Shown: positions 7,316-28,925 of the stretch, piece after piece
Numbering within the stretch: the stretch's first letter is position 1
Layout of the letters: the number at the start of each line of letters is the position of its first letter
Notes under the pieces: model-generated
The model's input: the letters and a program-made list of their open reading frames with translations, nothing else
What the model was told of the DNA's origin: nothing
Database searches by the model: none
Position numbers and translations under genes: made by a program
Origin: Candidatus Hydrogenedentota bacterium
GTDB lineage: Bacteria > Hydrogenedentota > Hydrogenedentia > Hydrogenedentales > SLHB01
Direction of reading: 5' to 3'
Assembly (NCBI GenBank): GCA_016215105.1
Contig: JACRLJ010000076.1
Location: forward strand, 1 to 41,649
Length of the DNA stretch: 41,649 nt

Positions 7316-9124
7316 GTGTTAGAGAAACGGGAATTCGAGCGAAACGATTTCTACTGGCGATTGTCCACTGCCGTAGCGGTGGTATCGGGGTTATTTTCGC
7401 TGGTGGTATTCTTGTTGATCGTGCTCAACTATTTGCAGTTCCGGGACGCGGATCCGGTCAACAATCTGCTCATTACAAAGATGCGCCAGGAGTATGCTGG
7501 GCTTCCCCAGAAGGACGATGCGCTCGCGGAACGAATTCGCGATCTCGAGTTATTGAATCGCAAAGCATTTTTCACGAGCCAAGTGTTTCTCCGTTCCGGA
7601 GCCATCATGCTCTTGGTTGGCGTGTCGGTGTTCATGATAGCCCTCAAGAACTCACTTCGCTGGCGCCGTGAAAGGCCGGTCCCAGAGGCTACGCCCACTG
7701 CTGACAAGGAGTTTCTCGCCTACGCTCGATCTCGACAATTGATCATGTGGGCCGGGGTCGCCCTCTTGGCGGTGGGGATGGCTGCGACGCTGATGACGGA
7801 AAGCGAAGTGGTGAAAGGCGCTGGCGGAGTCGCAGCAATACCGCCGGGCCCTCTGGCAAAAAGTGACACTTCGCCGTCCACGGGGGCGGCTGCGGAGAAG
7901 ACCCAGGTCGCGTCATTGCCGGCCACCGTTTCCGTACCAGCTCCAACGTGGGAAGCGATGGAGAAGAACTGGCCTAGCTTCCGAGGCCCCGGAGCTACCG
8001 GCGCGGCTCACTTTACGAACGCCCCGGTAGATTGGGATGTGGAAGCAGGAACGGGTATTCGCTGGAAATCGGACGTAGCGCTGCCAGGTTCGAATTCCCC
8101 GGTAATCTGGGAGAAGCGGCTGTTCATTTCCGGCGCCGACGACAAGACGCGCGAGATCTATTGCTACGACATCGATAGCGGCAAGCTGCTTTGGAAACAA
8201 TCCGTTGACAACGTGAGCGGGTCGCCCCAGACTCCCCCAAAAGTAAGTGAAGATACAGGATATGCGGCGCCGAGCATGGCCGCGCTCGGGGGACAGGTAT
8301 TTGCGATTTTCGCCAACGGGGACCTGGTTGCCTACGATGCCGAAGGGACCAGGCAGTGGGGATTCAATGTAGGCCTGCCGGACAATCATTACGGACACTC
8401 GTCGTCGTTGCTTGCGTTTGAAAAGCTGCTCTATGTGCAACTGGACCAACGTAAGGAGGCCAAACTGATCGCATTTGACGTAGCGACAGGAAAGCCGGTC
8501 TGGACTGCGAAACGCAAGACCATCTCCTGGGCCTCGCCAATCCTCGCGCGTACGGCATTTGGCCCTCAACTCATACTGAATTCGGAGACGACGGTAGATG
8601 CGTACGACCCGCAGACCGGCGCGGCCCTTTGGAGCCAGGAGTGCTTGGGAGGCGAGGTCGCGCCGTCTCCGGCGTATAGCAACGGAGTGGTCTTTGCCGC
8701 GAACGAATACGCCACCGCGTCCGCGATTCAGTTGAACAAATCCGAACAAGGTGTTACACCCCAGATTCTCTGGAAATACGACGAACTGCTTCCCGAGGTA
8801 TCGAGCCCGGTGGGAGACGGGGAACGTTTCTACTTCGGTACAAGCGCCGGTCAGCTTGTCTGTCTCGACGCGAAGTCCGGAAAGAAGCTATGGGTTCAGG
8901 AGTTTTCCGACGGGTTCTTCTCGTCACCGGTGCTCGTAGGTGATCGGATCTACATTCTTGATAACGAGGGTCACATGCACATCGTGGCGGCCAGTTCGAC
9001 GTATAAGTTAATAGCAACACGGAACATGGGCGAGAAGACGTTCGCCACGCCCGCGTTTCTCGAAGGCCGAATCTATCTCCGAACCATCGATCATTTGTTC
9101 TGTATCGAGCAAAAAGATGTCTGA
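7316..9124 (+). CDS. Multi-pass membrane protein with C-terminal PQQ-like beta-propeller
   Basis: This 602-residue protein begins at a GTG 3 nt after the previous stop. The N-terminal third holds three hydrophobic segments (about 12-40, 86-108, 145-165) separated by a charged, probably helical stretch. A low-complexity Ala/Pro/Ser linker leads to the propeller from about residue 215. The propeller opens with NWPSFRGPGATG, the shared W-x-x-FRGP element, and continues with repeats such as GKLLWKQSVD, GKPVWTAKRK and GKKLWVQEF. The end overlaps the NuoEF fusion by 8 nt. A three-helix anchor is more than a propeller needs, so the membrane part may contact the NapH-like protein. That is inference from co-encoding, not from any visible motif. 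Confidence 0.85.
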   Translation: MLEKREFERNDFYWRLSTAVAVVSGLFSLVVFLLIVLNYLQFRDADPVNNLLITKMRQEYAGLPQKDDALAERIRDLELLNRKAFFTSQVFLRSGAIMLLVGVSVFMIALKNSLRWRRERPVPEATPTADKEFLAYARSRQLIMWAGVALLAVGMAATLMTESEVVKGAGGVAAIPPGPLAKSDTSPSTGAAAEKTQVASLPATVSVPAPTWEAMEKNWPSFRGPGATGAAHFTNAPVDWDVEAGTGIRWKSDVALPGSNSPVIWEKRLFISGADDKTREIYCYDIDSGKLLWKQSVDNVSGSPQTPPKVSEDTGYAAPSMAALGGQVFAIFANGDLVAYDAEGTRQWGFNVGLPDNHYGHSSSLLAFEKLLYVQLDQRKEAKLIAFDVATGKPVWTAKRKTISWASPILARTAFGPQLILNSETTVDAYDPQTGAALWSQECLGGEVAPSPAYSNGVVFAANEYATASAIQLNKSEQGVTPQILWKYDELLPEVSSPVGDGERFYFGTSAGQLVCLDAKSGKKLWVQEFSDGFFSSPVLVGDRIYILDNEGHMHIVAASSTYKLIATRNMGEKTFATPAFLEGRIYLRTIDHLFCIEQKDV

Positions 9125-11603
9125 ATCCATCAACGTAGAAACCGAAGTCGATCTTAGCGAGATCGAGAGCATCGTCGAGGCGAATGGACGCGCCCCGGAA
9201 GCGGTCATTCCGATTCTCCAGGCGATCCAGTCAAAATATCGCTATCTTCCCACGCCTGCCCTGGAACGTGTCTGCGAATTGACCGAGATTACTCCTGCCG
9301 CTATCGAGGGAGTAGCGACATTCTATTCGCAATTCCGCCGAAAGCCGGTCGGAAAACATGTAGTGAGTCTCTGTGATGGCACGGCCTGCCACGTCAAAGG
9401 CGCCGTCGATGTCCACGAAGCGATGGAAATCGAGTTGGGCATGGAATCCGGCGATGATACCGACCCAGAGAGACGCTATACCATCCGAAAGGTGGCTTGC
9501 CTAGGATGCTGTTCCCTCGCGCCGGCCATGCAAATTGACGGCGTGACCTATGCCCACGCAGGCGCCGATTCCGTCCCGGGCATACTTCTTGATTTCCAGA
9601 AGCGCCAGTTGGAGACCCCTGAGGACCGCGACGAGACTCGGCGCAGTGTGAAGGCCAATGGCGCTGAGATTCGCATTGGCCTGGATTCATGCTGTGTCGC
9701 CAGCGGCACCGATCGAATCGAGCGCGCCCTTCACCGTGCGCTCGCGGAGTTGGAATCGGAAGTGCCTATCAAGCATGTAAGCTGCGTGCATATGTGCCAT
9801 CAAGTGCCCGTGGTCGAGGTGATCGAGGCCGGCAAGCCCCCGACACTGTACACGAGGGTCAGGGAGGAGGACGTTTCCGAGATCGTCGCGCGCCACTTTA
9901 AGCCGCGCAATCCGTTCCGCTGGGTTCAATCGTCAATGCTGCGCTGGACGGAGCGCCTGTACGGCGGAGTAGACGGCGAAGAAGCGCCCGAAAGTCACGA
10001 CGAAGATGTACGCGACGAACAGGTCTCGACGTTCCTGGGCGGACAATATCATATTGCCACGGAACACCGGGGCGATCTGAACCCCGCCGATCTCGACGAG
10101 TATTTGCGCCGCGGGGGCTTCATGGCGGTGGAGAAATGCCTCTTCGGAAAGGCAAGGGGACATGTGTTGCTCGCGCGCCACAAGGGAGTGGCTCCCGAGC
10201 CGCCAGTAACGGGAGCTGGGTGGACGGCGCGACAAATCATTGATGAGATAACCGCCAGTGGATTGCGGGGCCGCGGAGGCGCCGGGTTCCCGACGGGAAA
10301 GAAGCTGCAGTTCGTTCACGATGCGCCGGGTGACAAGAAATACATTATTTGCAACGGCGATGAAGGCGATCCGGGCGCGTTCATGGATCGAATGATCCTG
10401 GAATCGTACTCGTACCGCGTGATCGAAGGGATGATCCTTGCCTCGCTCGCGGTGGGATCGGACGTCGGCTACCTATACATACGTGCTGAGTATCCGCTAG
10501 CGACCAAGCGGATGCGCAAGTCCATAATCGAATGCGAAGAGGCAGGTCTGCTCGGTGACAATATACTTGGCAGCGGCAAGGCGCTGCACTTGAAAGTGAA
10601 AGAAGGGGCGGGGGCGTTCGTTTGCGGCGAAGAGACCGCATTGATCGCGTCGCTTGAAGGCAAGCGTGGCATGCCTACAATACGTCCGCCGTACCCTGCG
10701 CAGTGCGGATTGTATGGATGTCCGACTCTCATCAACAACACGGAAACGCTGGCGATGATCCCGTGGATCATCCGTAACGGAGCGGCGAAGTTCGCGGCGC
10801 TGGGCACCGAGCGAAGCAAAGGCACCAAGGTATTCTCGCTCGCGGGCAAGATACGGCACGGCGGCCTAATCGAAGTGCCTATGGGCATTACCATCAACCA
10901 GATCGTCGAAGGCATCGGCGGCGGTATCGCCAATGGCCGGAAGTTCAAAGCGATACTCGTCGGCGGACCATCGGGCGGATGCATTCCCGCATCTCTCGGC
11001 GAGACGCCCGTTGATTACGAAGCGCTCGCCGAAGCAGGCGCTATGATGGGCTCGGGCGGGATGGTAGTTCTTGACGATTCCGATTGCATCGTCGAAATGT
11101 GCCGCTATTTTCTGTCCTTCACGCAACATGAATCTTGCGGTAAGTGTTCGCCGTGCCGCATCGGCACCATGCGCTTGAAAGAGATGCTGACCCGATTGAC
11201 CCTTGGCCAGGGCCAGCTTAGCGATCTTGAACTGCTCGATCAGTTGAGCCGCGTGGTGAAGAATCAAAGCCTGTGCGGACTCGGCAAGACCGCTCCGAAT
11301 CCGGTCTTGACGGCGCTGAAGTATTTCCGAGAGGAATTTGAAGCCCATGTAAAGGGAATCTGCCCGGCGGGAAAGTGCAAGGCCTTGATTGACTACTGGA
11401 TCGTGGACACCTGTATCGGCTGCACCAAGTGCGCCCAAGTGTGCCCGGTCGACTGCATCGACTCGGAAGCATTCACGATGCACCACATTCGCCTGGACAC
11501 ATGCACGCGGTGTGACGCGTGTCTCGTGGCGTGTCCGGTTAACGCCATCAAGGCGGGATCGCGAACCAGAGAAGAACGGGAGTTGGCCTTGTGCCCACGA
11601 TAG
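9117..11603 (+). CDS. NADH dehydrogenase NuoE-NuoF fusion with C-terminal ferredoxin domain
   Basis: This 828-residue cytoplasmic flavoprotein joins four parts. Residues 15-165 are NuoE-like, with [2Fe-2S] ligands Cys86, 91, 128 and 132. Residues 185-262 form a second thioredoxin-like domain with Cys192/193 and Cys223/227, as in HydB/HndC-type NuoF. Residues 330-740 are the NuoF core, with the FMN/NADH glycine-rich loop GLRGRGGAGFPTG (382-394), NGDEGDPGAFMDR (413-425), and [4Fe-4S] ligands Cys674, 677, 680 and 720. Residues 762-812 carry two ferredoxin clusters (CIGCTKCAQVCP and CTRCDACLVACP). NADH oxidation on FMN is well established for this family. Unlike bifurcating hydrogenases, no HydA is present. 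It overlaps both neighbours, so its partners are probably the FAD/Fe-S protein and the NapH-like protein. Confidence 0.93.
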   Translation: MSESINVETEVDLSEIESIVEANGRAPEAVIPILQAIQSKYRYLPTPALERVCELTEITPAAIEGVATFYSQFRRKPVGKHVVSLCDGTACHVKGAVDVHEAMEIELGMESGDDTDPERRYTIRKVACLGCCSLAPAMQIDGVTYAHAGADSVPGILLDFQKRQLETPEDRDETRRSVKANGAEIRIGLDSCCVASGTDRIERALHRALAELESEVPIKHVSCVHMCHQVPVVEVIEAGKPPTLYTRVREEDVSEIVARHFKPRNPFRWVQSSMLRWTERLYGGVDGEEAPESHDEDVRDEQVSTFLGGQYHIATEHRGDLNPADLDEYLRRGGFMAVEKCLFGKARGHVLLARHKGVAPEPPVTGAGWTARQIIDEITASGLRGRGGAGFPTGKKLQFVHDAPGDKKYIICNGDEGDPGAFMDRMILESYSYRVIEGMILASLAVGSDVGYLYIRAEYPLATKRMRKSIIECEEAGLLGDNILGSGKALHLKVKEGAGAFVCGEETALIASLEGKRGMPTIRPPYPAQCGLYGCPTLINNTETLAMIPWIIRNGAAKFAALGTERSKGTKVFSLAGKIRHGGLIEVPMGITINQIVEGIGGGIANGRKFKAILVGGPSGGCIPASLGETPVDYEALAEAGAMMGSGGMVVLDDSDCIVEMCRYFLSFTQHESCGKCSPCRIGTMRLKEMLTRLTLGQGQLSDLELLDQLSRVVKNQSLCGLGKTAPNPVLTALKYFREEFEAHVKGICPAGKCKALIDYWIVDTCIGCTKCAQVCPVDCIDSEAFTMHHIRLDTCTRCDACLVACPVNAIKAGSRTREERELALCPR

Positions 11604-13132
11604 TCATAAACAATAGGAGTATCGACGTCGAGAACGGCACGACAGTCTTGCAGGCTGCGCGTGCGCTGGGCATCGAAGTGCCGACGCTGTGCTATTGGGA
11701 AGGCGTACGGCCGATGAACTCCTGCATGTTGTGTGTCGTACGCAATACCAAGACCGGTCAATTGCTGCCTTCCTGCTCCTCCGTGGTTCAGGAGGGCATG
11801 ACTGTCGAGACGGATACCGGCGATGTCTGCAATGCGCGAAAGGAAGTCCTCGAGCTGATCATCAGTGAGCACATCGGGGACTGCGAGGCCCCGTGTACGC
11901 ACACCTGTCCCGCGTCGATGAACATCCCGGTAATGATGCGGCAGATCTATGATGGGGACTTCGATGCGGCGGCGTTTACCGTCACCAACGGACTCGTGTT
12001 CCCCGGAACGTTGGGCCACGTTTGCCCCGCCCCCTGTGAGAATCCGTGCCGGCGCAAGTCCTATGACGAAACCATGGAGATCCGGTTCCTGCATCGAAAC
12101 GTCGCGGCCAAAGCGCGCACGGACAATCCTGAGTTGCTCGAGTGTCCTCCTGATTCTGGCCGGAAAGTGGCTATCGTTGGCGGCGGTTTGGCGGGTATGG
12201 CCGCCGCGTGGGTACTGCGAAAGCGCGGTCATGCGGCGACAATCTTCGAGAAGGAAGACAAGGCGGGCGGGAAGCTTCGCAAGTTGACGGAGGACGAGTT
12301 GCCGAAGGAGGTATTGGACGCCGAAATCGATCAAGTCCGCCGCCTGGGGGTCGAATTCACATACGGCACGGCGGTCAATGGCGATCTTGAATCCATTTGC
12401 GCCTCCTATGACGCGGTGATTCTGGCGTGTAATGGGGTCGGAAAGGCCGGCGGAAGCGTCTTCGAAGCGAAGGAACACAAGTTGAACGTCCGTGCGGTTG
12501 GCAACGGCAAGACCGCCGCCGTATGGGTTGACAAGTACCTCAAGAGCATCGAGGGGCCGGCGGAGCCGAAATTGTTCGAGAGCAAGATCGGAAAAATGGA
12601 CAAGTCCGAACTCGAGAACATGCGCGAGCACAATGAAAACAAAGAGTCCATGGCCGTGGCGTCACTGGATGGTACTCGAGTCGACTTGCGCGCGGAAGCC
12701 GGCCGTTGTCTGCATTGCGATTGCCGGAAACGAGTTTCGTGCGGGTTGCGAAAGTGGGCTTCGGAGTACGGAGCGGAGAAAAAGAAGTATCTTACGACCG
12801 AGGAAAGGGATTTCCGCATCATTGGGCGCGGGAACGTACTGTTCGAGCCAGGGAAGTGTATCCGCTGTGGGCTGTGCGTGGCGATTGCGGAGAAGCACGG
12901 AGAGGACATCGGCTTGGCGTTTAGCGGACGCGGATTCGACCTCGAAATCCGGGTGCCCTTTGACCACAGCTTTGATGAGGCGCTGCGGAAATCAGCCGAC
13001 GAGTGCGTCGCTGCGTGCCCCACGGCCGCGATTGCGTTTCGCAACAAGGAAGACGTCGAGGCCTGTCACACCACCACATGGATCGAACTCGATCCTCACA
13101 GCACTCTCAGCGTGAACGCCAGCGTGAAGTAG
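11591..13132 (+). CDS. NuoG/GltD-like 2Fe-2S, 4Fe-4S and FAD protein lacking the NAD(P)H domain
   Basis: This 513-residue protein starts at a GTG overlapping the NuoEF fusion by 13 nt. A plant-type [2Fe-2S] domain (Cys34, 45, 48, 62), as in NuoG, comes first. A GltD/DPD-like helical Fe-S domain follows (Cys98, 102, 106 and Cys145, 149, 153), then an FAD Rossmann fold (VGGGLAGMAAAWVLRKRG, from residue 196). GltD then has an inserted NAD(P)H-binding Rossmann fold. Here only about 100 residues separate the FAD glycine loop from the closing AVGNGKTAAVWVDKYL element, with no second GxGxxG. The C-terminus adds Cys-rich sites at 373/376/378/384 and 423/426/429 with 472/476. The likely role is an electron-transfer partner that receives electrons from NuoF. 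The stop lies 37 nt inside the converging ArsG-like gene. Confidence 0.88.
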   Translation: MPTIVINNRSIDVENGTTVLQAARALGIEVPTLCYWEGVRPMNSCMLCVVRNTKTGQLLPSCSSVVQEGMTVETDTGDVCNARKEVLELIISEHIGDCEAPCTHTCPASMNIPVMMRQIYDGDFDAAAFTVTNGLVFPGTLGHVCPAPCENPCRRKSYDETMEIRFLHRNVAAKARTDNPELLECPPDSGRKVAIVGGGLAGMAAAWVLRKRGHAATIFEKEDKAGGKLRKLTEDELPKEVLDAEIDQVRRLGVEFTYGTAVNGDLESICASYDAVILACNGVGKAGGSVFEAKEHKLNVRAVGNGKTAAVWVDKYLKSIEGPAEPKLFESKIGKMDKSELENMREHNENKESMAVASLDGTRVDLRAEAGRCLHCDCRKRVSCGLRKWASEYGAEKKKYLTTEERDFRIIGRGNVLFEPGKCIRCGLCVAIAEKHGEDIGLAFSGRGFDLEIRVPFDHSFDEALRKSADECVAACPTAAIAFRNKEDVEACHTTTWIELDPHSTLSVNASVK

Positions 13133-14594: not shown

Positions 14595-14737
14595 GGCGCG
14601 TCTCCGAGGCATGCGTACTATGCGCGAAGAAAACAATAGACATCCGTGCCGGGCATGCGCTCAATCCGGCGCGGGGAACAATTCGCCGCTGGGACTATGT
14701 TAAGCTATCACTGACCGATTAACAAGGAGTGATCACC

Positions 14738-15060: not shown

Positions 15061-16338
15061 ATGACAGAGAAAAAATTCAGAGCACTGGCGCCGGGTGTCG
15101 CGGTTGTGCTAATCGTTCTTTGCGCTGTCGCCGCCGAATACTGGTTTGTTCAGGCGCCGGAAAGCACAATTCCGAAGCAGCAAGTCAATACTAAGCCGGC
15201 GTACGAGCCGCCGCCCGCGCCTGCCAAAGGGGGGGCGCCGGTCACCGCGGATTGGCCGGTGTATCACGGTGGTGCGGACTTGGCCGGGGCAACGGACTGC
15301 CGGTTGCCCGATAAGCCCGGCATATTGTGGCAATGCCGCGTGGAAGGTTCCATTCATCAGCCTCCGGTTGGCGATAGTCATGGCATCTATGTGGCGACGC
15401 GCGCTGGCACGGTGATGGCGCTCGAGGTCGATGGAAAGGAACGGTGGAAGAAGCAGCTCGTCGACGCCGCCAAGACCGACGGGAGCGAACCTCGGGAACG
15501 TTTCGACGCCCCGATTGCGTGCTTTCGTTCAACGGTGGTGATAGGGTCCAAGGCAGGGGTTGTTCATGCGCTTGACACCGCGGATGGAACGGAGCGTTGG
15601 ACGTACGACGTGGGAGCGCCGATTCTTGGCACCGTGAACCTGTATGCGCCGAAGTCGTCCGAGGAGCCCGCGCGGCTCTACGTGATCAAACAAGACGACG
15701 GGGCGCTTCACTGCATCGACTTCAACACCGGCAAGCCGATCTGGCAGGGAAGAGCCGTTGCCCGAAGCGATGGCTCGCCGGCCGTTGGAGATGGCATTGT
15801 TGTGTACGGTAGTTGCGCCTCGGCGTTGCATATCTTTGCAGCCCAGGAGGCGCGGCTTCTCACGAGTATCGAACTTGGCGAAGATTGCCAAGTCGCTGCG
15901 GGTCCCGCGCTGGCCGGTGGCGATGTCTACTCGGGTAGCCGGGGCGGGAAGTTCTTCCGGGTCAATGTTGGCGCCGGACGAATTGTCTGGACGAACTCGG
16001 ACAGCAAGAAGGAAATATTTACGACACCGGCTGTAGGACAGGACATGGTGGTATTTGGGTCTGAAGATGGCGGGGTCTACGCGGTTGACCGGGATTCCGG
16101 ACGATTGAAATGGCGCTTCGATACACACCGGGTTCCAACTTCGGCGGTCATCGCCTCCGACAAGATCGCCGTTGGCGCCGGTGGCGTGTTCTATCTGCTG
16201 AAATCGGACACCGGCGAGAAGGTCTGGAGCTACGAAGTAAGTGACGGAATTGCGTCACCAGCCATCATCAATGGAATGGTGGTCGTTGGTAGCGAGGATG
16301 GGACGATTATGGCGTTTGGCGAGAAGCCGGCCGGATGA
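15061..16338 (+). CDS. Membrane-anchored PQQ-like beta-propeller, YHG subtype
   Basis: This 425-residue protein has an N-terminal membrane segment (about residues 10-31), a Pro/Ala-rich linker and a periplasmic propeller. Blade ends read ERWKKQLVD, ERWTYDVGA, IVWTNSDS, LKWRFDTH and KVWSYEVSD. The propeller starts with WPVYHGGADLAG rather than FRGP, and a central VVYGSCASALHIF segment is distinctive. Both features recur in the lipoprotein at 24861-26105, to which it is clearly paralogous along its whole propeller (PILGT, YGSC, DCQVA/DSQVA, SYEVSDGIASPA/SYAVSDEITSPA). It follows the HTH gene by 59 nt and may be co-transcribed with it. A terminator-like hairpin overlaps its stop. Confidence 0.83.
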   Translation: MTEKKFRALAPGVAVVLIVLCAVAAEYWFVQAPESTIPKQQVNTKPAYEPPPAPAKGGAPVTADWPVYHGGADLAGATDCRLPDKPGILWQCRVEGSIHQPPVGDSHGIYVATRAGTVMALEVDGKERWKKQLVDAAKTDGSEPRERFDAPIACFRSTVVIGSKAGVVHALDTADGTERWTYDVGAPILGTVNLYAPKSSEEPARLYVIKQDDGALHCIDFNTGKPIWQGRAVARSDGSPAVGDGIVVYGSCASALHIFAAQEARLLTSIELGEDCQVAAGPALAGGDVYSGSRGGKFFRVNVGAGRIVWTNSDSKKEIFTTPAVGQDMVVFGSEDGGVYAVDRDSGRLKWRFDTHRVPTSAVIASDKIAVGAGGVFYLLKSDTGEKVWSYEVSDGIASPAIINGMVVVGSEDGTIMAFGEKPAG

Positions 16339-19604: not shown

Positions 19605-20855
19605 CTAATTTGCTTTGATATCGAAGGCCATGAGGACATTGCCATGGCGGATGTACAAGCGCCCGTCCGAGATGACCGGGTGGGCCCAATGCGGACCGTC
19701 GCCTGCGGTGATTTTGAAGCGGCTAACCAGTTCGAGCGCCTTGGGGTTTACCGGCGCCAACGCGAGCGTGCCCTTCTCGCCGTAGCAGTACAACAAGCCC
19801 TCGGCGCAAATGGCGGAAGCCATTCCAACTTCCTCGGTTTCATACATCACTTTTCCGGTCTTAAGTTCGAGGCACGCCCAGTGACTCTTGGCGTTTGAAG
19901 AATAGAGATATCCGTGGTCTACGATGATGCCGCCGTGCCCGGTGTTGATGACTTCATCGGTCCACTTTTCAGTGGTTGTCTTGCCGTCGGCGGAAAGCTC
20001 GTATGCCCGCCCGCCCTTGCCGTGCCCACTCGTGATATAGATGAACCCGTCCTGGTAGACGGGCGAGTTCGAGTGGTTGGGATCTTCGGCCGTCGTGTCG
20101 AACGGCTGCTTCCAGATTACCTCTCCCGTCTTCGGATCGAAGCCCGACAGATACCGCGCAGTCAATGTGACGAGCTGGCGCCGTCCGCGCTCGACCAGAA
20201 TGGGCGAGCAGTAGGCCGGCATATCGCCGAATCCCACGCTGGTCCAGACGGTCTTACCAGAGTTCTTATCGAGTGCCGCGAATGCGGCCTCTTTTCCGCC
20301 CGGCGTGCATATTAGGCGGTCCGAATCGATGAATATGGATTCGACGAAGCCGCAGCGCGGAGACTGCCCGCCAAACTCCTTCGCGAGATCGCGGGTCCAT
20401 CGGACATCGCCGGAAATAGCGTCGAAGCAGAACAGCTTCCCAACGCCGCTTACCAGGTATAATCGATCTCCGTCGACCGTGGGACATGCCCGCGAGCCCG
20501 GATACGAATCGTTCCAGTCGGGCCCGTAGGACTTCTTCCACAGCAAACCACCCTTCAGGTCATATGCAAAAAGAAATCCTTCGTCTCGGTCAACGGACAT
20601 ACCCGTGATATACAATTTCCCGCGCGCGACGGTAGCCGACGAATAGCCCCGCCCCAGTCCTTCGACCGTCCACAGCGGTTTGAGGCCGTCCTCCGGCCAT
20701 TTCTTCAACAAACCGGTTTCGGGCGAGTGACCATCGCGGTGCAACCCGCGAAACTGAGGCCAGTCGGCGCAATATGCCGGGAGGCAGAATGCCGCGATCA
20801 GCAATACGAGCCATGTAGTTCGATTACGTCGACGAAGATCCCGATCCGAATCCAC
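19605..20855 (-). CDS. Exported PQQ-like beta-propeller protein, FRG subtype (last gene of export operon)
   Basis: This protein of about 416 residues has a basic N-terminus, a signal peptide (core TTWLVLLIAAFCLPAYC) and a propeller opening with ADWPQFRGLHRDGHSPETG. Blade ends such as LLWKKSYGP, VRWTRDLAK and VIWKQPFD mark it as PQQ/BamB-like. It ends with HWAHPVISDGRLYIRHGN, nearly identical in form to the protein at 29170-30408, so the two are close paralogues. I chose a GTG at 20855 because GGAGGA lies 9 nt upstream; a GTG at 20900 is possible. It starts 49 nt after the FtsX-type permease gene on the same strand. A periplasmic partner of that transporter is a reasonable guess. Confidence 0.85.
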   Translation of the reverse strand: MDSDRDLRRRNRTTWLVLLIAAFCLPAYCADWPQFRGLHRDGHSPETGLLKKWPEDGLKPLWTVEGLGRGYSSATVARGKLYITGMSVDRDEGFLFAYDLKGGLLWKKSYGPDWNDSYPGSRACPTVDGDRLYLVSGVGKLFCFDAISGDVRWTRDLAKEFGGQSPRCGFVESIFIDSDRLICTPGGKEAAFAALDKNSGKTVWTSVGFGDMPAYCSPILVERGRRQLVTLTARYLSGFDPKTGEVIWKQPFDTTAEDPNHSNSPVYQDGFIYITSGHGKGGRAYELSADGKTTTEKWTDEVINTGHGGIIVDHGYLYSSNAKSHWACLELKTGKVMYETEEVGMASAICAEGLLYCYGEKGTLALAPVNPKALELVSRFKITAGDGPHWAHPVISDGRLYIRHGNVLMAFDIKAN

Positions 20856-20904
20856 TACGGACTTTCCTCCCCAGTCGGGCCACCCGCTGGGGTGGCGCAC
20901 AAAG

Positions 20905-23900
20905 TCATTCCGTTCGTAATGACGAGACGCTGGTCTTGCGTAGACCCAGCAGTAGCGCCAAACCGGCGCACACCATGGCGCTGATCAGCACCAGCGCAAA
21001 TACACCGAGGCGTCCCATCGCGGAAACTCCGGCGTGCGACGATACCATCGTCGGGAGCATCGCCACCACGGACGCCACGGCGCCGATTACTGATCCTAGC
21101 ACGAGCAATAGACCGTATTCGCACGCAAGCAACGTGAAAACGGCGTCAGGAGAGAATCCTACCGCCCAGAGTAGCGCGATTTCCCTGCGCCGCTCAAAGA
21201 TATTTCTAAGCGCGACCACGCCGGTAGCCGTCGCCCCCAGCATCAATCCGACCCCTCCCAGGGCCAGGAACATGCTGAGGTAGGTACCTTCGACCGCGTG
21301 AAAGAGCGCGAGTCGGGCAACAGTAGTGGTCACGTCCAGGCCGTGCCGATCGAAGGCGTTTCGAAGCGCGACCATAGTGTCTGAAGCGGTGTTAGGCGGT
21401 GTATCGAGCAAGAATACGCGAAATCCTTCCTGTGACGGCCAGAGTCTAACGAAGTTCTTCAGCGAGATCAGGATAGCGCCCTGGAATACCGACAGGCGCA
21501 TCGGAAGTTGGCCCGCCAGCTTTACGGAGACATCCCGGCCCGCGTCGTCGCGGTACGTCAGGCTGTCGCCATCTGTCAGTCCTGTCTTCTTCTTGAGCGT
21601 CCACATCGCCGTATCGGAATCGCCCACCAGCGCTGGGATAGCTCCATCTCCCAGGTCTTGATTCAACACCGCCCAAATGTTCTCGCTGGATTCACCCGAA
21701 AAAGCCTTAAGACGTCCCAGTTCCTGTTCATCAACCCCGAGCACCCGAGGCGTCAGCGCGCGATTGAGGTTCAAGCAACTCGCATCATCACCGTCGTGAA
21801 CACGAATACCAATCGCATTAACGCCTGGGACGGCCGTCGAAAGCGTGGCGGGATCAAGGATGGGAGCCGTCGCTTCCGCATAGAGCGCGAAGCCTCCTGT
21901 ACCCGACGAGCGCTGATCCGCGTTCGCTCCGATATCGCTCTGCATGGCGGATACGGCGAGCACGAGAAACCCGCCGCCGGCGAGCGATGAGACGATGCCG
22001 AGACTGCGGCCGCGCCTGCGCGTGCCGTTCAGTATGGCGAGAGAAAGCGTCGTGGGAGGTCTGGCGCCGCGATGGGACGATGCGCGCGAGAACAAATACT
22101 TCATAAACAGGAGCCCAGCGGCGAGCGTTAAGGCGCCGGAAACGAAGAACGGCATCGCAATTTCCGCGGGCGGAGAAATTACCGCATACACAACAAGGGC
22201 AATCGCGCCAATCAGCGCAACACTAGCCCCGGCAAGATCCCGCAAGTTGCGAGGCCTTGTTCGCGCCTCCTGCGAGAAGTCCGCATTCATGAGTTCTGCC
22301 GCGCCGTGGCGCAACAAGCGTTGAAGAGTGAACGCCGCCGACACCAGCGCGCAGACGACGCCTCCCGCCGCGCCGGCCTCAACGCTTGTCAGTTGGATAT
22401 CGAATAGAATCGGAATACGGCCAACGGCGTCCTGCCAGTAGATGGACAGCCCAGCCATTAGGGCCCACGCGTACGCTAGGCCCAATCCCGTCCCGGCAAT
22501 GGATCCGGGGAGCGCCACTGCGAGCGCTTCGCATAGCAAAATGGTGCGAATACGCCCCCTGGGATATCCGAGCGCCGCCAGCGTTCCAAGTTCCTCGGCG
22601 CGTTGCTGCATTCCAAACGCGTACAGCAGGCCCATCAACGTGAGGGCGGAGACCAACAGGAAGAAGCTCATCCCGAGGAACATCCCGCCAAGATCGGTGG
22701 CTTGCGCCGCCGCGGACAGCGCTTCGTCGTGTACCGGTCTGAGTTCGATCCCGGCGTCGCGAGGGCCAAGGCTCTTGGCGATGCCGGCCATGATATCGTC
22801 TGCGTGCATGGTCGAACTCGGGAAACGGACTGCGGTCAGCCGGCCGAAGCGATTTCCCCACATTTCTTGACCGGCCGCCAACGTGACAAGCGCCTTGGGG
22901 GTCTGGCGGTACTCGCGCCAATACGCTTCGTTGGCCTCGTCCTTCAGAAGCTGTTCGTCCATGGGCATGCCGATCTTCCAGTCTTTGCAGCTTTCGACAT
23001 TGCTCAGTCCGGGGAAATCGGGGACGAGCGCTTTTTCGGCGTCAAAGTCCTCCATCGGTAGAATGCGCTTGACCGTGAATTGGCGGGCGCGCTCCTCGAA
23101 ACGGTTGGAAGGCAGGGTTACGTAATACGCGATAGTGATGCGTGCGCCTTCGTGCGCCGCGAGGCGCTCGGCGAGCCACGAATTGATCACCATTTCATCG
23201 TCGCTGAGTCCTTGACTGAGTTCGCCACCGGCGGTCATGAACGAATAGGGCGTTGAATGACTGTCGTTCCGTAGGGCATTGACGAGATACGTCAGTGTTC
23301 CTTGCGCGCTAGGCAACGAAAGCGCGGCCTTCTCCGTTGCGTCGTCCAGAAAGACGCGGTTCGTCTCCAATTGAAGAACCGTGCCGCTGCGCTGCGTCAC
23401 TCGTAGCCCCGAAAATTCCGGCCTCCAAACTTCGGAGAGAGTCCGTTGCGCCCTATCTAGCGTGCAGCCAGGGCCTGCGAGCAGAAGGTTCGCCTGGTCA
23501 GCGCATGCAGCCATCTGCTGTAGATCGGAAATGCGAACAAAAAAATTGGAAGGGGGAAGTTGGCTGGGCGTGAGACTGAATCGCCCCATCTGCGCGTCGG
23601 TAACTATTGCTTTCACGGTGAAATTGGCGCGCTGCGACGCTTCTTCCTCGCGCGACGAGAGCGGCGCGTCTCGGGATAGAAGGCCGGGCTTGGCGATTCG
23701 TAACGCGACCGAGTCTCCCTCCTTGACGCCCAGCGCCTTCGCGAGGCGCAGATCGAGCGCCGCCTCCCGTGTTCCCAACTCCAACGGAGGTGATTCCGCG
23801 TAGCTCCAGAAGTCAGTCGAAACACCCAGAGCTTGGACCTTATTAATCTGCGTTTTCTCGCCCGTGTTGGGGTCCTGGTAGATCGCCATGCCCGGAAGCA

Positions 23901-24165
23901 GGAGAGCAGCGGTCACCGGCGCGCCCAGACGGGCCCGCGCCGCCGAGGCCAACTCGGCGGAGAACAGGCGTTCCCCGGAGCCCGCCGCGAACTGCACGTG
24001 ACCGAGACGCAAGAGCGCGTACGTTCGGAGGGTATGGTTCACCGAATCGCCGATGGCCAGCGCCCCAGTGAGAATCGCGGCCGCCAGCGCCGTGCCAATG
24101 AATAGCCCGAAATGGGTCCGGCGATAATGAACGAGACTGCGTGCGATGAGACGGAGACTATTCAT
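20905..24165 (-). CDS. Long FtsX-type ABC transporter permease
   Basis: This 1086-residue permease has an N-terminal helix (HFGLFIGTALAAAILTGALA) followed by a large periplasmic domain. A first FtsX-like block lies around GMSFFLLVSALTLMGLLYAF and EELGTLAALGYPRGRIRTIL. More helices and a second periplasmic domain follow, and a second FtsX block carries RREIALLWAVGFSPDAVF near the C-terminus. This double-FtsX layout matches the MacB/LolCE superfamily, which moves lipoproteins or other substrates by pulling on them from the periplasmic side rather than across the inner membrane. The ATG at 24165 overlaps the ATPase stop by 8 nt, fixing the start. The substrate is unknown; the propeller and glycosyltransferase neighbours hint at envelope glycans or lipoproteins. 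Confidence 0.87.
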   Translation of the reverse strand: MNSLRLIARSLVHYRRTHFGLFIGTALAAAILTGALAIGDSVNHTLRTYALLRLGHVQFAAGSGERLFSAELASAARARLGAPVTAALLLPGMAIYQDPNTGEKTQINKVQALGVSTDFWSYAESPPLELGTREAALDLRLAKALGVKEGDSVALRIAKPGLLSRDAPLSSREEEASQRANFTVKAIVTDAQMGRFSLTPSQLPPSNFFVRISDLQQMAACADQANLLLAGPGCTLDRAQRTLSEVWRPEFSGLRVTQRSGTVLQLETNRVFLDDATEKAALSLPSAQGTLTYLVNALRNDSHSTPYSFMTAGGELSQGLSDDEMVINSWLAERLAAHEGARITIAYYVTLPSNRFEERARQFTVKRILPMEDFDAEKALVPDFPGLSNVESCKDWKIGMPMDEQLLKDEANEAYWREYRQTPKALVTLAAGQEMWGNRFGRLTAVRFPSSTMHADDIMAGIAKSLGPRDAGIELRPVHDEALSAAAQATDLGGMFLGMSFFLLVSALTLMGLLYAFGMQQRAEELGTLAALGYPRGRIRTILLCEALAVALPGSIAGTGLGLAYAWALMAGLSIYWQDAVGRIPILFDIQLTSVEAGAAGGVVCALVSAAFTLQRLLRHGAAELMNADFSQEARTRPRNLRDLAGASVALIGAIALVVYAVISPPAEIAMPFFVSGALTLAAGLLFMKYLFSRASSHRGARPPTTLSLAILNGTRRRGRSLGIVSSLAGGGFLVLAVSAMQSDIGANADQRSSGTGGFALYAEATAPILDPATLSTAVPGVNAIGIRVHDGDDASCLNLNRALTPRVLGVDEQELGRLKAFSGESSENIWAVLNQDLGDGAIPALVGDSDTAMWTLKKKTGLTDGDSLTYRDDAGRDVSVKLAGQLPMRLSVFQGAILISLKNFVRLWPSQEGFRVFLLDTPPNTASDTMVALRNAFDRHGLDVTTTVARLALFHAVEGTYLSMFLALGGVGLMLGATATGVVALRNIFERRREIALLWAVGFSPDAVFTLLACEYGLLLVLGSVIGAVASVVAMLPTMVSSHAGVSAMGRLGVFALVLISAMVCAGLALLLGLRKTSVSSLRTE

Positions 24166-24850
24166 GAGTTCCGGTTCGTTCGTTGAGGACGCCATCGCGA
24201 AACTCAAGGACGCGGTCCATCATTTGGGCGATGGCCATGGAATGCGTCACGACAACCAAGGTCAATGCTTCTTCCCGGTTCAAATCGAGGAGAAGGCGGG
24301 CAAGCTGTTCCGCACCGTCCTGATTGAGCGATCCCGTGGGCTCATCCGCCAGCAACAGGCTCGGTTGATTGATCAACGCGCGCACTACGGCGGCGCGCTG
24401 CCGCTCGCCTCCGGAGAGCCGTCCCGGCAATTGGTGCGCGCGGTCCGAAAGACCCGCTCGCTCCAATAACTTCTGTGCGCGCTCCACGCTTTGCCCGGAG
24501 TTGCTGTTCACCAGGGTCGGCACAAGCGCGTTTTCGAGCACACTGCATTGGGGCAACAAGTGGTGCATCTGGAACACGAATCCGATTTCCGTATTCCGAA
24601 TCCGGGCGCATTCGTTCTCAGAGATCGCGCCTAGATCCCGGCCCTTGAAAATGATCGCTCCCGAGGTGGGGCGGTCCAACGTGCCGATAAGGTTCAGAAG
24701 TGTACTCTTCCCGCAACCTGATGGACCCACAATTGCCAGTGATTCGCCCGGCATGACCTCAAGATTCACGCGCGTTAGAACGCGTAGTGGCCGCGGCGAC
24801 TCCGGGTATTCCTTGACAATGTCACGAAGCGACAGTAAAGGTTCCGCCAT
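24158..24850 (-). CDS. LolD/MacB-type ABC transporter ATP-binding protein
   Basis: This 230-residue ATPase has all core motifs: Walker A GPSGCGKST (residues 42-50), Q-loop FVFQMHHLLP, signature LSGGERQR (from 145), Walker B LLLADEPTGSLN (165-176) and switch His in VVTHS. The LNLIGTLDRPTSG and PTGSLN wording is typical of LolD/MacB-like ATPases that pair with FtsX-type permeases, as here. GGGAG lies 6 nt before the ATG, inside the tail of the propeller lipoprotein region, and the gap from that gene is 10 nt. Its stop overlaps the permease start, so the two subunits are translationally coupled. Confidence 0.95.
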   Translation of the reverse strand: MAEPLLSLRDIVKEYPESPRPLRVLTRVNLEVMPGESLAIVGPSGCGKSTLLNLIGTLDRPTSGAIIFKGRDLGAISENECARIRNTEIGFVFQMHHLLPQCSVLENALVPTLVNSNSGQSVERAQKLLERAGLSDRAHQLPGRLSGGERQRAAVVRALINQPSLLLADEPTGSLNQDGAEQLARLLLDLNREEALTLVVVTHSMAIAQMMDRVLEFRDGVLNERTGTHE

Positions 24851-24860
24851 GAACTACTCC

Positions 24861-26105
24861 CTAGCCCCCGCCAAACGCGGCTACCGAGCCATCATCGGCC
24901 CCGACGACCACGAGCGAGCCCGCCAGCGCGGGGGATGTGATTTCATCGCTGACCGCATACGACCACAGCTTTTCGCCGTCCAGCAGCTTCAGCATGTAAA
25001 GGGTTCCGCCAGCCGACACCAATACCTTATCACCGGCGATGACCGGCGAGGAAGGCGTGTCCCCAAGTTTCTGTCTCCATTTCAGGTCGCCAGTCTGGCG
25101 GTCTAGCGCATAGACAACTCCGTCGTTGGCCGTAAACACAACGCGATCGGGGCCAACGGCGGGGGTCGAGAACGCTTCGGCGTCGCAGTTAGCATTCACC
25201 CAGAGTGTAGTGCCCGTCTGTACATTGACGTGAACGAATTTCCCGCTACGGCTACTCGAGAAGGCGTGTTCGCCAAGCAGGACGGCGCCACCGGCCACCT
25301 GGGAGTCCTCGTCCAAGGGGATTTCGCGGAGCATGTTCCCAGTGACGGTCGAGAACACATGCAACGCGCCGGCGCAGCTTCCGTAGACTGCGAACGCGTC
25401 GCTAACAGCGGCGGACCCGTCGCAACGCGCTACGCCCTCACCCCTCCACACGCGCTTGCCGCTGGCAAAGTCCAAACATTGAAGCGCGCCCTCAGATTGG
25501 TCAATAACGAATAACCGCTTCTGTGTCTCGCCGTCTGTCCGCACCGTTGCGAAATTGGGAGTCCCAAGAATAGGGTAGTCGGTGTTACATTCCCAGCGCA
25601 GTTCACCGTCCGTTGCGTTGATCGCGTATATCACCCCGCTGGCAGCGCACGCGATCAGCGTGGATTCGAACAACGCCAAAGGGGCCTCAAATTCGACTGG
25701 AGTCTGCGGCTTTCCTTGCGCGGCGGGATAGCTGAACGGCTTGGACCATACCGCCTTTCCATTCAGATCTAGTCCGTGCAGGACACCTTTCTTATCGGCC
25801 AGGCAAACGCGGTCGTTTCCCACCACGGGAGTGTTGGACACCGGAGCGCCTGAGTCGTATCGCCAAATCCGCGTGAGCGTATTGGGAAGCGACACGCTCG
25901 ACGCGCCATCAAGCGACGGTGCGCCGTGATACGTCTCCCACGTGGGGGGCACGCGGGCTGCCTTTGCGAGCTCAGCCGCTGGTGCGGCTGTTGGCGCGGG
26001 GACCGAGTTTGCCGCAGGCGTTCCGGATTCCGGCGCCGGACGACCGCATGCGGCGAACAAAAGGATAACACCCATCGCCGCCACGATTGGCACGTTTTGT
26101 CTCAT
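24861..26105 (-). CDS. PQQ-like beta-propeller lipoprotein, YHG subtype
   Basis: This 414-residue lipoprotein has a signal ending in the lipobox LFAAC (Cys20), then a low-complexity Pro/Ala linker, then the propeller. It opens with WETYHGAPSLDG and carries the VYGSCAGALHVF segment, both shared with the membrane-anchored propeller at 15061-16338. The two can be aligned by eye over the full propeller. Blade ends include KAVWSKPFS, LRWECNTD, RVWRGEGV, LKWRQKLGD and KLWSYAVSD. The ATG shares its A with the TGA stop of the glycosyltransferase (TGATG), which fixes the start. Lipid anchoring and adjacency to a LolD/FtsX-type transporter make it a candidate accessory protein or cargo. Confidence 0.87.
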   Translation of the reverse strand: MRQNVPIVAAMGVILLFAACGRPAPESGTPAANSVPAPTAAPAAELAKAARVPPTWETYHGAPSLDGASSVSLPNTLTRIWRYDSGAPVSNTPVVGNDRVCLADKKGVLHGLDLNGKAVWSKPFSYPAAQGKPQTPVEFEAPLALFESTLIACAASGVIYAINATDGELRWECNTDYPILGTPNFATVRTDGETQKRLFVIDQSEGALQCLDFASGKRVWRGEGVARCDGSAAVSDAFAVYGSCAGALHVFSTVTGNMLREIPLDEDSQVAGGAVLLGEHAFSSSRSGKFVHVNVQTGTTLWVNANCDAEAFSTPAVGPDRVVFTANDGVVYALDRQTGDLKWRQKLGDTPSSPVIAGDKVLVSAGGTLYMLKLLDGEKLWSYAVSDEITSPALAGSLVVVGADDGSVAAFGGG

Positions 26106-27442
26106 CAAGTACCTTTCGAGGCCGCCGCCGATCTCACATTTCCGGCGCTCCGCCCCGCCACACACTCCTCAAAGACGACCGTCATATTTGCGGCCATGGC
26201 ACCGCTCGTGAATCGAGCGCCTATAGCTTCACGCGCTCGGGTTCCAAGGCTGCGGGCGAGATCGGGGTTTAGAAGTACCTGCTTGAGCGTCTCCGCTAGT
26301 GCGGCGCCATCAGAAGGATCATACACCAGCCCGCCGCCGGTCATCTCAATCACCTCGCGGAACGCGCCAACGTCCGGCTGCACAACGGGCACACCGCAGG
26401 CCCCAGCTTCGAGAATGAATAACCCAAAGGCCTCTCCCATTGGCGCGGGCGACGACAGCACCGTGAGGGAGCGAACGAATTCCAGGCGTGCAGCCTTATT
26501 GAACTGTTCGATGATTTCCACATCAGCCGCCACGCCCGCGTCCGAGAGTCTCGCCATCATGTCCCTGACGTAATCCCGATCACCGCTTGTTACTCCTCCG
26601 GTAGCGCGCAACCGCAAATTCTTCAACCGCGGTTCCTTCTTCAATTGGATGAACGCATCGACCAATGCGCTGAAGCCTTGGGTCGAATGTATTCGCGAGA
26701 GGTACCCCAGAACCGGCGGGTCGACGCTTAGCGGGGCAGGCTGGATCTCATTCCAGTCAATCCCTAACGGAACGACGCGAATGCGCTCGAGGGACATTTG
26801 TGTCCGCGCCGCTATTCGCTCGGCGTACCACCGGCTCACGGACACAAAGGCGTCGACGTCGCGGCCCTTTTCCGCGATGATTCTCCAGCAACGTTCGCGC
26901 CACGCAGGCGCCATGGCGTCTACCCAGGTGTCCTCGTCCTGCAAGCTGCATACGACGGGAACGTTCAACGTCTTTCGAATTTCCGACGCTACGCCCAACA
27001 GCAAAGCATTCGATATGTGCGCCACGTCAGGCTTGGGCTGATCGCTCAACCACGCGAGCAGGCGATCCAATTCCTTGCGTTGCCGGCCACGCCGTCCCTG
27101 CAACATCGAAAAGGTCATTGGCCCCAAGTCTGCCGCCCGGGTCGAACCTTCTTGCGCCGCGGCGCGCCGCAACATCCACGCGGAGTCAAATAGCCGGTCA
27201 AACCAGCGGGGAGTATTCCGGAAAAGACCCAATTGCTGCTGAAGGAAGACGTTTACTCCCCCAAAGAAGACACCTGCCTCAGCGTCCATACCTTCCGAAT
27301 CCAAGAGGATCGGGAGATAAAGTGGGACCACGGTAACATCGTGACCTTGCCGGCGCAGTGCGCGCACCATCTGCCCGTCGCGAAGGCAGTTCTCGCAGTA
27401 AAACGTCCCGCCCGTGCCGGGCGTAAGTGATAGAATCCTCAT
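26105..27442 (-). CDS. GT4-family glycosyltransferase with N-terminal CxxC
   Basis: This 445-residue GT-B fold enzyme should transfer a sugar from a nucleotide donor at the cytoplasmic face. The donor-binding EX7E motif is visible as EAFGLFILE within PMGEAFGLFILEAGACGVPVV (split here: the Glu pair spans GEAFGLFILEAG), and IRVVPLGIDWNEI marks the start of the C-terminal domain. The N-terminus has GGTFYCENCLRDG, a CxxC in the acceptor-side loop; I recall this form from a subgroup of GT4 enzymes. The acceptor is not predictable. It is the first gene of a five-gene minus-strand unit with a propeller lipoprotein, an ABC ATPase, a permease and an exported propeller. It joins the lipoprotein gene by a TGATG overlap. 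Confidence 0.87.
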   Translation of the reverse strand: MRILSLTPGTGGTFYCENCLRDGQMVRALRRQGHDVTVVPLYLPILLDSEGMDAEAGVFFGGVNVFLQQQLGLFRNTPRWFDRLFDSAWMLRRAAAQEGSTRAADLGPMTFSMLQGRRGRQRKELDRLLAWLSDQPKPDVAHISNALLLGVASEIRKTLNVPVVCSLQDEDTWVDAMAPAWRERCWRIIAEKGRDVDAFVSVSRWYAERIAARTQMSLERIRVVPLGIDWNEIQPAPLSVDPPVLGYLSRIHSTQGFSALVDAFIQLKKEPRLKNLRLRATGGVTSGDRDYVRDMMARLSDAGVAADVEIIEQFNKAARLEFVRSLTVLSSPAPMGEAFGLFILEAGACGVPVVQPDVGAFREVIEMTGGGLVYDPSDGAALAETLKQVLLNPDLARSLGTRAREAIGARFTSGAMAANMTVVFEECVAGRSAGNVRSAAASKGT

Positions 27443-27566: not shown

Positions 27567-28925
27567 CTATGGGCGCTTCAGATCGAGGCACTTCAGGGTA
27601 TCTTGATTCCGGACGAGCAATTTGCCATCCGTCAACGCCATCGGCGCCCACATTTCCCGTCCATCAAACACCTTGGCTCGAGCAAGTTCCTTGTACTTTT
27701 CCGGGGAAGGGTCAACCAGATGAAGCATGCCCGTCTTGCCATCAAACGCGATGATCATATCATCCGCCAGAATGAAGTCGCCGCGCTCAAACAGGGGAAG
27801 CGCTTCGGCGCCGGGGGAATCCGATTTGGCGTCCGGCGTCGCTCCCGGCGCGGCAGGTTTGACCTCGCTTTCAGGAACGGGTTTAGTGCGCCACTTGACG
27901 GTCCCGTCCAGCGCGAGACAAGTCATGCCATCCTCCCTCTCATTCGAATTGCTATTCACGTAGAGATGATCTTTGTATAGGATGGGCTGATGAATCTGGC
28001 TGCCGCATGTTTTCGGGTCCAGTTTGAGCACTTCAGCGGCTTCGAGACCGGTAGCGCCCTTCCTGACTTGGAGAATCGCGGATCCCGCGTTATAGCCGCC
28101 GGTGACGAACAACTTGTCTCCGGGCAGGCTGGTGGGATAAGGGATTGGAATCCAGCACTGCCATCCTTCGTATTTCCACAGAATAGATCCATCCGTGAGC
28201 GAGATTCCCGCGGTTGAACCCTTTTGTGTGGCGTCCTTGTTGGACGCGCCGATCGCGACGACCTGCTCTAATCCGGCGAGCGTCACGACAGTGGGGGACA
28301 CATAACCAACTAGTCCCAATCCAGGGCTCTTCCACTTGAGGTCACCGGTGACGCGATTGTACGCGACTACGAACGCGTCGGGGGCCTGAGCCGCAACAAT
28401 AACCAGATCGCCATGTAGGACGGGCGCCTGCGAGACGCCCCACCGGGGCAATTCCGATTTGAAATCATTGAGAAGATTCTTCCGCCAAACGGGTTTGTGG
28501 GTCTTGCGATCCGTGCATAGGAATTCGCCTGTCAACCCTACCGAATAGACGTACTTGTCGTCTACGGTTGGAGGGGTCCGCGAACCGTTGTGGCTGACCT
28601 TCCCCAGCGCCTCGTACGAGTAGTTCCAGAGTTCAGTCCCTTTATCGAGCGATAGGCAGCGCAGAATGTCAGTCTTATCCTCAGTCCGATCCAATAGGTA
28701 GACTTCCCCGTTACGGATTGCCGGACCCGCGAATCCCATTCCGAGCGGGATACTCCACAAAACGCGCGGCCCGGTCTCCGGCCAGGAGCGAAGTAATCCC
28801 TTCTCTGGAGATACGCCGTCCCGGCTCGGACCTTCAAACTGGGGCCAGTCACCATACGATGCCCAGCAGCATGTGACGGCGCAGACTGCGAAACAACAAG
28901 TAACTCCGGTGCGGTTGAGAATCAT
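27567..28925 (-). CDS. Exported PQQ-like beta-propeller protein with Cys-rich signal region
   Basis: This 452-residue protein has an N-terminal hydrophobic signal containing five Cys (from VTCCFAVCAVTCC), then a propeller opening with GDWPQFEGPSRDGVSPEKG. Blade ends include ELWNYSYEA, PVWRKNLLN, LKWKSPGLG and ILWKYEGW. A Pro/Ala/Ser-rich insert (PAAPGATPDAKSD) interrupts the later blades. The C-terminal MWAPMALTDGKLLVRNQD matches the family closing segment. An AAAGGA element precedes the ATG by about 9 nt. It is divergent from the related propeller gene at 29170, with 244 nt between starts. Its relation to the export operon 124 nt downstream is unclear. Confidence 0.85.
   Translation of the reverse strand: MILNRTGVTCCFAVCAVTCCWASYGDWPQFEGPSRDGVSPEKGLLRSWPETGPRVLWSIPLGMGFAGPAIRNGEVYLLDRTEDKTDILRCLSLDKGTELWNYSYEALGKVSHNGSRTPPTVDDKYVYSVGLTGEFLCTDRKTHKPVWRKNLLNDFKSELPRWGVSQAPVLHGDLVIVAAQAPDAFVVAYNRVTGDLKWKSPGLGLVGYVSPTVVTLAGLEQVVAIGASNKDATQKGSTAGISLTDGSILWKYEGWQCWIPIPYPTSLPGDKLFVTGGYNAGSAILQVRKGATGLEAAEVLKLDPKTCGSQIHQPILYKDHLYVNSNSNEREDGMTCLALDGTVKWRTKPVPESEVKPAAPGATPDAKSDSPGAEALPLFERGDFILADDMIIAFDGKTGMLHLVDPSPEKYKELARAKVFDGREMWAPMALTDGKLLVRNQDTLKCLDLKRP

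Follow-up and report, generated by a model that had tools for sequence, protein, structure and literature searches.

A YbbP-type ABC transporter core with a propeller and a glycosyltransferase, genomically coupled to a Bfu-like redox module in Hydrogenedentota and other phyla

What does a mechanotransmission-type (Type VII) ATP-binding cassette (ABC) system do in an operon with a glycosyltransferase and propeller proteins? The question is raised by contig JACRLJ010000076.1 of a Candidatus Hydrogenedentota bacterium, a stretch of 41,649 nucleotides (nt) that we refer to as “the window”. Here, we describe a core of four genes from this operon, encoding a GT4 family glycosyltransferase, a BamB-like propeller, an ATPase and a permease, that is conserved across several phyla and is coupled in the genome to a redox module. 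Our favored reading, to which we give a probability of roughly 40%, is a joint one: that the core is a YbbAP-like Type VII system and that it serves a Bfu-like redox complex.

The operon and its conserved core

An earlier note, made from the letters of this DNA, had described five minus-strand genes joined by TGATG, a 10-nt gap, an 8-nt overlap and a 49-nt gap, and all of these are present in the sequence. From 5′ to 3′ on the minus strand, with Pfam domains and other evidence in parentheses, the genes are:

26105..27442, minus strand: GT4 family glycosyltransferase, 445 amino acids (aa) (Glycos_transf_1, 76 bits).
24861..26105, minus strand: BamB-like, eight-bladed propeller lipoprotein, 414 aa (PQQ_2, 121.8 bits; lipobox FAAC).
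24158..24850, minus strand: LolD/YbbA-type ATP-binding subunit, 230 aa (ABC_tran, 123.7 bits).
20905..24165, minus strand: YbbP-type permease with 10 transmembrane (TM) helices, 1086 aa (two FtsX domains; TM pattern; structure model).
19605..20855, minus strand: exported PQQ-like propeller, a variable accessory outside the conserved core (PQQ_2, 101.2 bits; GTG start).

The GT4 stop codon and the ATG of the propeller lipoprotein have one base in common (TGATG), 10 nt separate the propeller stop codon from the LolD-like ATPase gene, and the permease ATG overlaps the ATPase gene by 8 nt. The 49-nt gap before the exported propeller holds only for the chosen GTG start; there is another in-frame GTG at 20900. 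A scan for promoters and terminators was uninformative (2 promoter-like matches with 3.0 expected, and 8 terminator-like matches with 8.6 expected), as was a scan for the AGGAGG pattern (18 matches with 14.9 expected).

Conservation of the operon was assessed in 68 genomes of Hydrogenedentota, the phylum of the window, and in a search of named genomes that confirmed at least 576 permease relatives, of which the best 80 were examined in detail. Thresholds for presence were set by hand (more than ~200 bits for the permease; E up to 1e-80 for GT4). Strong permease matches are found in 41 of the 68 Hydrogenedentota genomes, GT4 matches in 42, and both in 39; in 31 of these 39 genomes, the two genes lie on one contig no more than 12 kb apart, always on the same strand. 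The core set also occurs in Kiritimatiellota, Planctomycetota, Verrucomicrobiota, Bacteroidota, Aminicenantes and Spirochaetales. Of the loci from the best 80 of the 576 or more relatives, 44 belong to other phyla and include 3.6 kb or more of upstream sequence; a same-strand ATPase gene is present in 39 of these, GT4 in 25 and the propeller in 25. Outside Hydrogenedentota, Kiritimatiellota and Lentisphaerota, most loci with both GT4 and the propeller have them in reversed order. In 53 of 66 loci, no more than 60 nt separate the ATPase and permease genes. Hosts of permease relatives include the cultured Pontiella, Marinifilum and Maribellus.

The earlier note had proposed a neighborhood search for the same gene order, with chance adjacency as the alternative. 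Hidden Markov models for neighboring genes were trained on Hydrogenedentota loci, such that the counts they returned (17, 18 and 11 of 20) are partly circular; this does not apply to the control, in which none of 20 canonical LolCE neighborhoods from the same phylum has a GT4, propeller or StnC-like gene of this kind (for the last of these, see below). Since the four-gene order is kept in relatives and the GT4 and propeller genes are absent from the LolCE neighborhoods, we reject chance adjacency. All 21 gene pairs gave positive mirror-tree correlations (r = 0.48–0.84); these were computed without an unlinked control gene and therefore indicate co-inheritance at most.

The exported propeller is not part of this conserved set. 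An orthologue with >50% identity lies directly 3′ of the permease in 2 of 40 Hydrogenedentota loci, some of which end at contig ends, and any same-strand propeller lies directly downstream of the permease in 14 of 61 named loci. A fixed five-gene unit is thus rejected, because the exported propeller varies between loci. Accordingly, the earlier description of a transporter flanked by two propellers stands for the GT4 side, where the propeller is constant, and falls for the side downstream of the permease. One more propeller gene lies on the same strand upstream of GT4, after a gap of 124 nt:

27567..28925, minus strand: exported propeller upstream of GT4 (PQQ_2, 65 bits).

A propeller directly upstream of GT4 is also found in five loci of relatives (L050, L051, L058, L060 and L084).

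The ABC pair and its candidate partners

The ATPase has intact Walker A, signature and Walker B motifs, and its closest relatives are LolD, MacB and YbbA, with LolD and YbbA among those of solved structure. It scores 254.9 bits against the LolD equivalog TIGR02211, under the cut-off of 307.75, while the permease scores 26.9 bits against the LolCE equivalog, for which the cut-off is 362.45. The permease has 10 predicted TM helices, and the large loops that follow helices 1 and 7 form periplasmic domains at residues 39–495 and 741–967. Its structure model is confident (mean predicted local distance difference test score, pLDDT, 88.4; predicted template modeling score, pTM, 0.82), and the top Foldseek match of this model is E. 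coli YbbP (E = 2.5e-15). Aligned with YbbP (9ge6_A) by VIA-align, the permease gives a Z score of 23.3 over 706 residues, with a root-mean-square deviation (rmsd) of 6.2 Å.

The first periplasmic domain is enlarged. Of its ~455 residues, ~185 are covered by LolE and MacB domains (LolE 5udf_D: Z = 15.9, 185 residues, 3.9 Å; MacB 3ftj: Z = 14.8, 184 residues, 4.1 Å); LolC domains match too. A large periplasmic domain of Porter/Sabre fold after TM1 is a feature of Type VII systems, and it is found here, matched as one undivided domain. An internal repeat within this domain spans only 33 columns (probability 93, E = 2.7e-7), and a comparison of the first periplasmic domain with the second gave no significant match. 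In 78 aligned sequences, the GDDAxCLNLN motif of the permease is invariant, its cysteine C797 being present in 100%, and C393 is present in 94%; both cysteines lie in the periplasmic domains.

These features agree with the earlier assignment to a mechanotransmission-type system with a LolD/MacB-type ATPase and an FtsX-fold permease. They also agree with the view that the layout is not a standard Lol or Mac arrangement: LolCE and LolD cut-offs are missed, the ATPase is a separate protein, and the permease has 10 TM helices. The label “MacB-type” has to be dropped, as no MacB periplasmic-domain family was matched in Pfam and the fold is closest to YbbP. MacAB-TolC shares the Type VII fold, but the MacB ATPase is fused to a permease with four TM helices. 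No MacA-like or TolC-like gene was found among the scanned genes of the window, the rest of the genome not having been searched. Given the separate ATPase, the 10 TM helices and the lack of both genes among those scanned in the window, we reject a MacAB-TolC system.

The closest known system is YbbAP-TesA, which the passages of PMC12646458 that deal with it describe as a Type VII ABC lipid hydrolase complex of E. coli that pulls hydrophobic compounds from the inner membrane. According to the same passages, YbbAP has 10 TM helices with periplasmic domains between TM1 and TM2 and between TM7 and TM8, and gene adjacency is among the supports for TesA as its partner. The window pair has the same number of TM helices, the same placement of periplasmic domains and a separate LolD-like ATPase, YbbP is the top structural match of its permease, and a candidate extracytoplasmic partner is encoded next door. 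It differs from YbbAP-TesA in that the permease is ~280 aa longer, with the enlarged, repeat-containing first domain, and in its neighbors: a BamB-like propeller and GT4 rather than an adjacent TesA-type GDSL hydrolase, together with a link to redox genes. A GDSL_2 lipase/acylhydrolase gene, of the fold class of TesA, is located ~12 kb beyond GT4 (39043–40224, plus strand).

Type VII systems also include regulators, and the pair could resemble FtsEX or BceAB, with ATP-driven movement of the periplasmic domains signaling to, or regulating, the propeller or the redox complex, and with no extraction of a substrate. BceB is indeed close in structure, with a Z score of 23.4, practically equal to that of YbbP, but with an rmsd of 12.2 Å. 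The best Foldseek match overall is the extracting YbbP, and no sensor kinase or cell-wall hydrolase was recognized among the recurrent neighbor clusters. We consider regulation of this kind quite unlikely.

The candidate partner, the core propeller, has a confident model (pLDDT 91.1) with eight blades and a fold like that of BamB (E = 1.7e-22; ~20% identity). Unlike BamB, it is linked to an ABC transporter, and it scores 114.7 bits against the BamB equivalog, short of the cut-off of 285.2. Residue C244 is invariant in 43 sequences. GT4 has no predicted membrane helix and carries a CxxC motif (C16 and C19; window positions 27386–27397) that is invariant in 41 of 41 sequences, which suggests metal or thiol chemistry in a soluble enzyme.

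The window is rich in propellers. Eight PQQ_2 propeller genes score above the cut-off in its 41.6 kb, spanning 2629–36847, with starts at 2629, 7316, 15061, 19605, 24861, 27567, 29158 and 34991. One of these is a paralogue of the core propeller, 43% identical to it over 390 aa (BLASTP E = 5e-105):

15061..16338, plus strand: paralogue of the core propeller, between the ABC operon and the redox operon (PQQ_2, 125.3 bits).

This abundance, together with the one clear lipobox, would suit a dedicated Lol-like machine that sorts lipid-anchored propellers or other lipoproteins to the outer membrane, with the propeller as a LolA-like receiver and GT4 glycosylating the cargo. LolCDE-LolA shares with the window a LolD-type ATPase, which is the nearest relative of the one described here, an FtsX-type permease, and periplasmic domains of LolC and LolE that resemble the first domain of the window permease. 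However, the window has a single large permease instead of LolC and LolE, both proteins score under their equivalog cut-offs, and most of the propellers have a signal peptide or an anchor instead of a lipobox. Moreover, LolCE above the curated cut-off and LolA are encoded separately in the same genome, such that the housekeeping Lol role is already filled. A housekeeping Lol system is rejected on the missed cut-offs and the separate LolCE and LolA, and dedicated Lol-like sorting is possible though doubtful.

A redox module coupled to the core

Unbiased clustering of neighboring genes revealed that three more families recur upstream of the core. One is a NapH-like polyferredoxin, another a NuoE-NuoF fusion protein of ~790 aa, and the third a ~510-aa Fe-S flavoprotein. 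A membrane-anchored propeller of ~590 aa, recognized through Pfam, sits between them. An orthologue search of the window’s own genome placed the flavoprotein in the window itself. There, the earlier note had made no mention of a redox module at 5431–13132 on the plus strand, with genes that overlap or nearly touch:

4160..5254, plus strand: membrane-anchored NHL-repeat protein heading the redox operon, membership uncertain (NHL; TM).
5431..6051, plus strand: 4Fe-4S ferredoxin with a twin-arginine translocation (Tat) signal, NapG/RnfB-like (Fer4_7; weak mauM_napG and rnfB matches).
6038..7312, plus strand: NapH-like membrane polyferredoxin, 424 aa (Fer4_5, 57 bits; overlaps the ferredoxin gene).
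7316..9124, plus strand: membrane-anchored PQQ-like propeller, 602 aa, with three N-terminal TM helices (PQQ_2, 110.8 bits; TM).
9117..11603, plus strand: NuoE-NuoF fusion, BfuC-BfuB-like (Pfam; solved relatives).
11591..13132, plus strand: Fe-S flavoprotein, 513 aa, truncated StnC/NfnA-like (Pfam; orthologue search).

An RRDFIRG motif was seen by eye in the Tat-signal ferredoxin, and the polyferredoxin scores 53 bits against TIGR02163, under the cut-off. The NuoE-NuoF fusion comprises a 2Fe-2S_thioredx domain, a second thioredoxin-like 2Fe-2S region, Complex1_51K, NADH_4Fe-4S and a C-terminal 4Fe-4S pair; its closest solved relatives are NfnB chains (9n5u_B, 9bov_B and 8oh5_B) and HydB chains. 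In the flavoprotein, 2Fe-2S, Fer4_20 and Rossmann domains are followed by a C-terminal cysteine-rich part, and residues 4–281 alone align to 9bov_A and 8oh5_C, which are chains of 1172–1178 aa. We take the matched chains to be those that carry the Stn-type names StnB and StnC.

Relative to the Nfn-Bfu/StnABC enzymes, then, the fused protein has both BfuC and BfuB domains and the N-terminal 280 residues of the flavoprotein are StnC-like. The differences are that BfuC and BfuB are fused, that the StnC-like subunit has 513 aa rather than ~1170, with no alignment to the remainder of StnC, and that the module is joined to NapH-like and Tat ferredoxin partners and to an ABC system. The Bfu family of electron-bifurcating enzymes is defined, in the relevant part of PMC9304861, by its BfuBC core. 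By its predicted domains, the fused protein has this core, i.e., a flavin mononucleotide (FMN) domain and the full set of Fe-S domains. In this family, BfuA feeds a third substrate, and the flavoprotein is a candidate counterpart whose alignment is confined to residues 4–281. The module appears to fit the Bfu family, bifurcation being a possible activity.

The redox and ABC genes form one same-strand run in many relatives, among them loci L113, L118, L123, L148 and L150. In two planctomycete loci (L127 and L174), the redox run is downstream of the ABC genes; in L174, the two are separated by a Tat-like ferredoxin as well as a 350-aa protein. In the window, the two halves are on opposite strands.

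The permease and the short, StnC-like flavoprotein also occur in the same genomes. With a presence threshold of E up to ~1e-57 in Hydrogenedentota, the flavoprotein is found in 39 of the 41 genomes with the permease and is absent from 23 of the 27 without it; the two genes lie no more than 12 kb apart in 26 of the 39. In a Bacteroidota order represented by 247 genomes, the permease is found in 42 genomes and the short flavoprotein in 31. The two occur together in 29 genomes, and in 16 of these they lie within 12 kb of each other. This count keeps only the short, full-length type of flavoprotein (31 of 84 matched genomes); the other matched genomes have only a long type of ~900–1290 aa, aligned over its first ~280 residues. 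Loci of other phyla led to 12 further genomes, all of which have an StnC-like gene, including three in which it was not seen near the permease. The co-occurrence of permease and StnC-like gene in the two phyla is strong.

Could the envelope transporter and the redox enzyme nonetheless be independent, both useful to anaerobes and neighbors without joint action? The opposite strands in the window are consistent with this, as is the fact that the halves lie apart in Verrucomicrobia-titled loci and in some Bacteroidota. On the other hand, the halves share a strand, short gaps and one order in several phyla, and their presence and absence are coupled in two. We regard two separate functions as unlikely.

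Other genes in the window have their own interest. An arsEFG-like triad lies between the two operons (13096–14616, minus strand), comprising an MTH895/ArsE-type thioredoxin, an ArsF-family protein and an ArsG-family permease, all above NCBIfam cut-offs; with clusters matched by eye, ArsG-like neighbors were seen in seven and ArsF-like neighbors in six of the examined loci. Ahead of the redox genes is a 251-aa single-TM protein (1541–2296, plus strand) with no Pfam or NCBIfam match. A sulfatase with an SGSH_C domain (30908–32635, plus strand) has beside it a 664-aa protein (32681–34672, minus strand) with no Pfam match.

A possible role in assembling an electron-transfer complex

The reading of the core as YbbAP-like follows from the permease model, which fits YbbP best, and from the 10 TM helices and matching domain placement. 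In the joint reading that we favor, the ATPase and permease would draw a hydrophobic or lipid-anchored substrate, possibly modified by GT4, out of the inner membrane and hand it over to the BamB-like propeller as receiver. The product would then go into constructing or equipping the extracytoplasmic side of an NAD(H)/ferredoxin-linked, NapH-type membrane complex for electron transfer, which itself includes several propellers. The linked, NADH-fed complex probably uses the ABC machine. The gene set, its conservation, the topology, the fold and the genomic coupling are directly supported by the data, and the substrate, the part played by GT4 and a physical link to the complex are inferred. A more specific version, which we regard as a long shot, is that glycosylated or lipid-anchored propellers are loaded by a YbbP-type ABC system dedicated to a bifurcating, NapH-linked complex, thereby building a trans-envelope electron conduit in many, mostly anaerobic, phyla.

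Several observations weigh against a YbbAP-like system that serves the redox complex. The redox module is nearby in none of the 12 Verrucomicrobia-titled loci, and the short StnC-like gene is absent from 13 of the 42 Bacteroidota genomes with the permease, meaning that the ABC part can stand alone. The co-occurrence tests also ignore relatedness between genomes. The lipobox of the window propeller is not kept in relatives; lipidation is therefore no constant feature of the core propeller and is rejected as one. Lastly, a cytoplasmic GT4 is an awkward fit for a machine that acts on the periplasmic face. The earlier note had suggested that the operon may export or load a glycolipid or glycosylated lipoprotein; no evidence on a substrate emerged, and glycolipid export in particular sits poorly with a cytoplasmic GT4. 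As a rule, Type VII systems do not carry substrates across the inner membrane, as stated in the passages on them in PMC12646458. The GT4 product would therefore need another route, i.e., a flippase, or the substrate would have to be a secreted glycoprotein.

Each part of this cluster is of a known kind. Our searches of the open-access (PMC) literature gave no description of the linked ABC-redox cluster, and the combination of an enlarged YbbP-type permease with a propeller and GT4, tied to a Bfu-like module, appears to be undescribed. Few Type VII ABC systems have been characterized, each of them defined by its periplasmic partner. If our favored reading is correct, the core would be a further kind of Type VII system, with a propeller and a glycosyltransferase, that is kept in many phyla. 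In the relevant part of PMC9304861, 17 Bfu clades were left by the authors without an assigned function, and the link described here offers a testable role for one more Bfu-like variant. The same link suggests a coupling between assembly of the envelope and the flow of electrons in Hydrogenedentota, Kiritimatiellota, Planctomycetota and Bacteroidota, the cultured hosts named above included.

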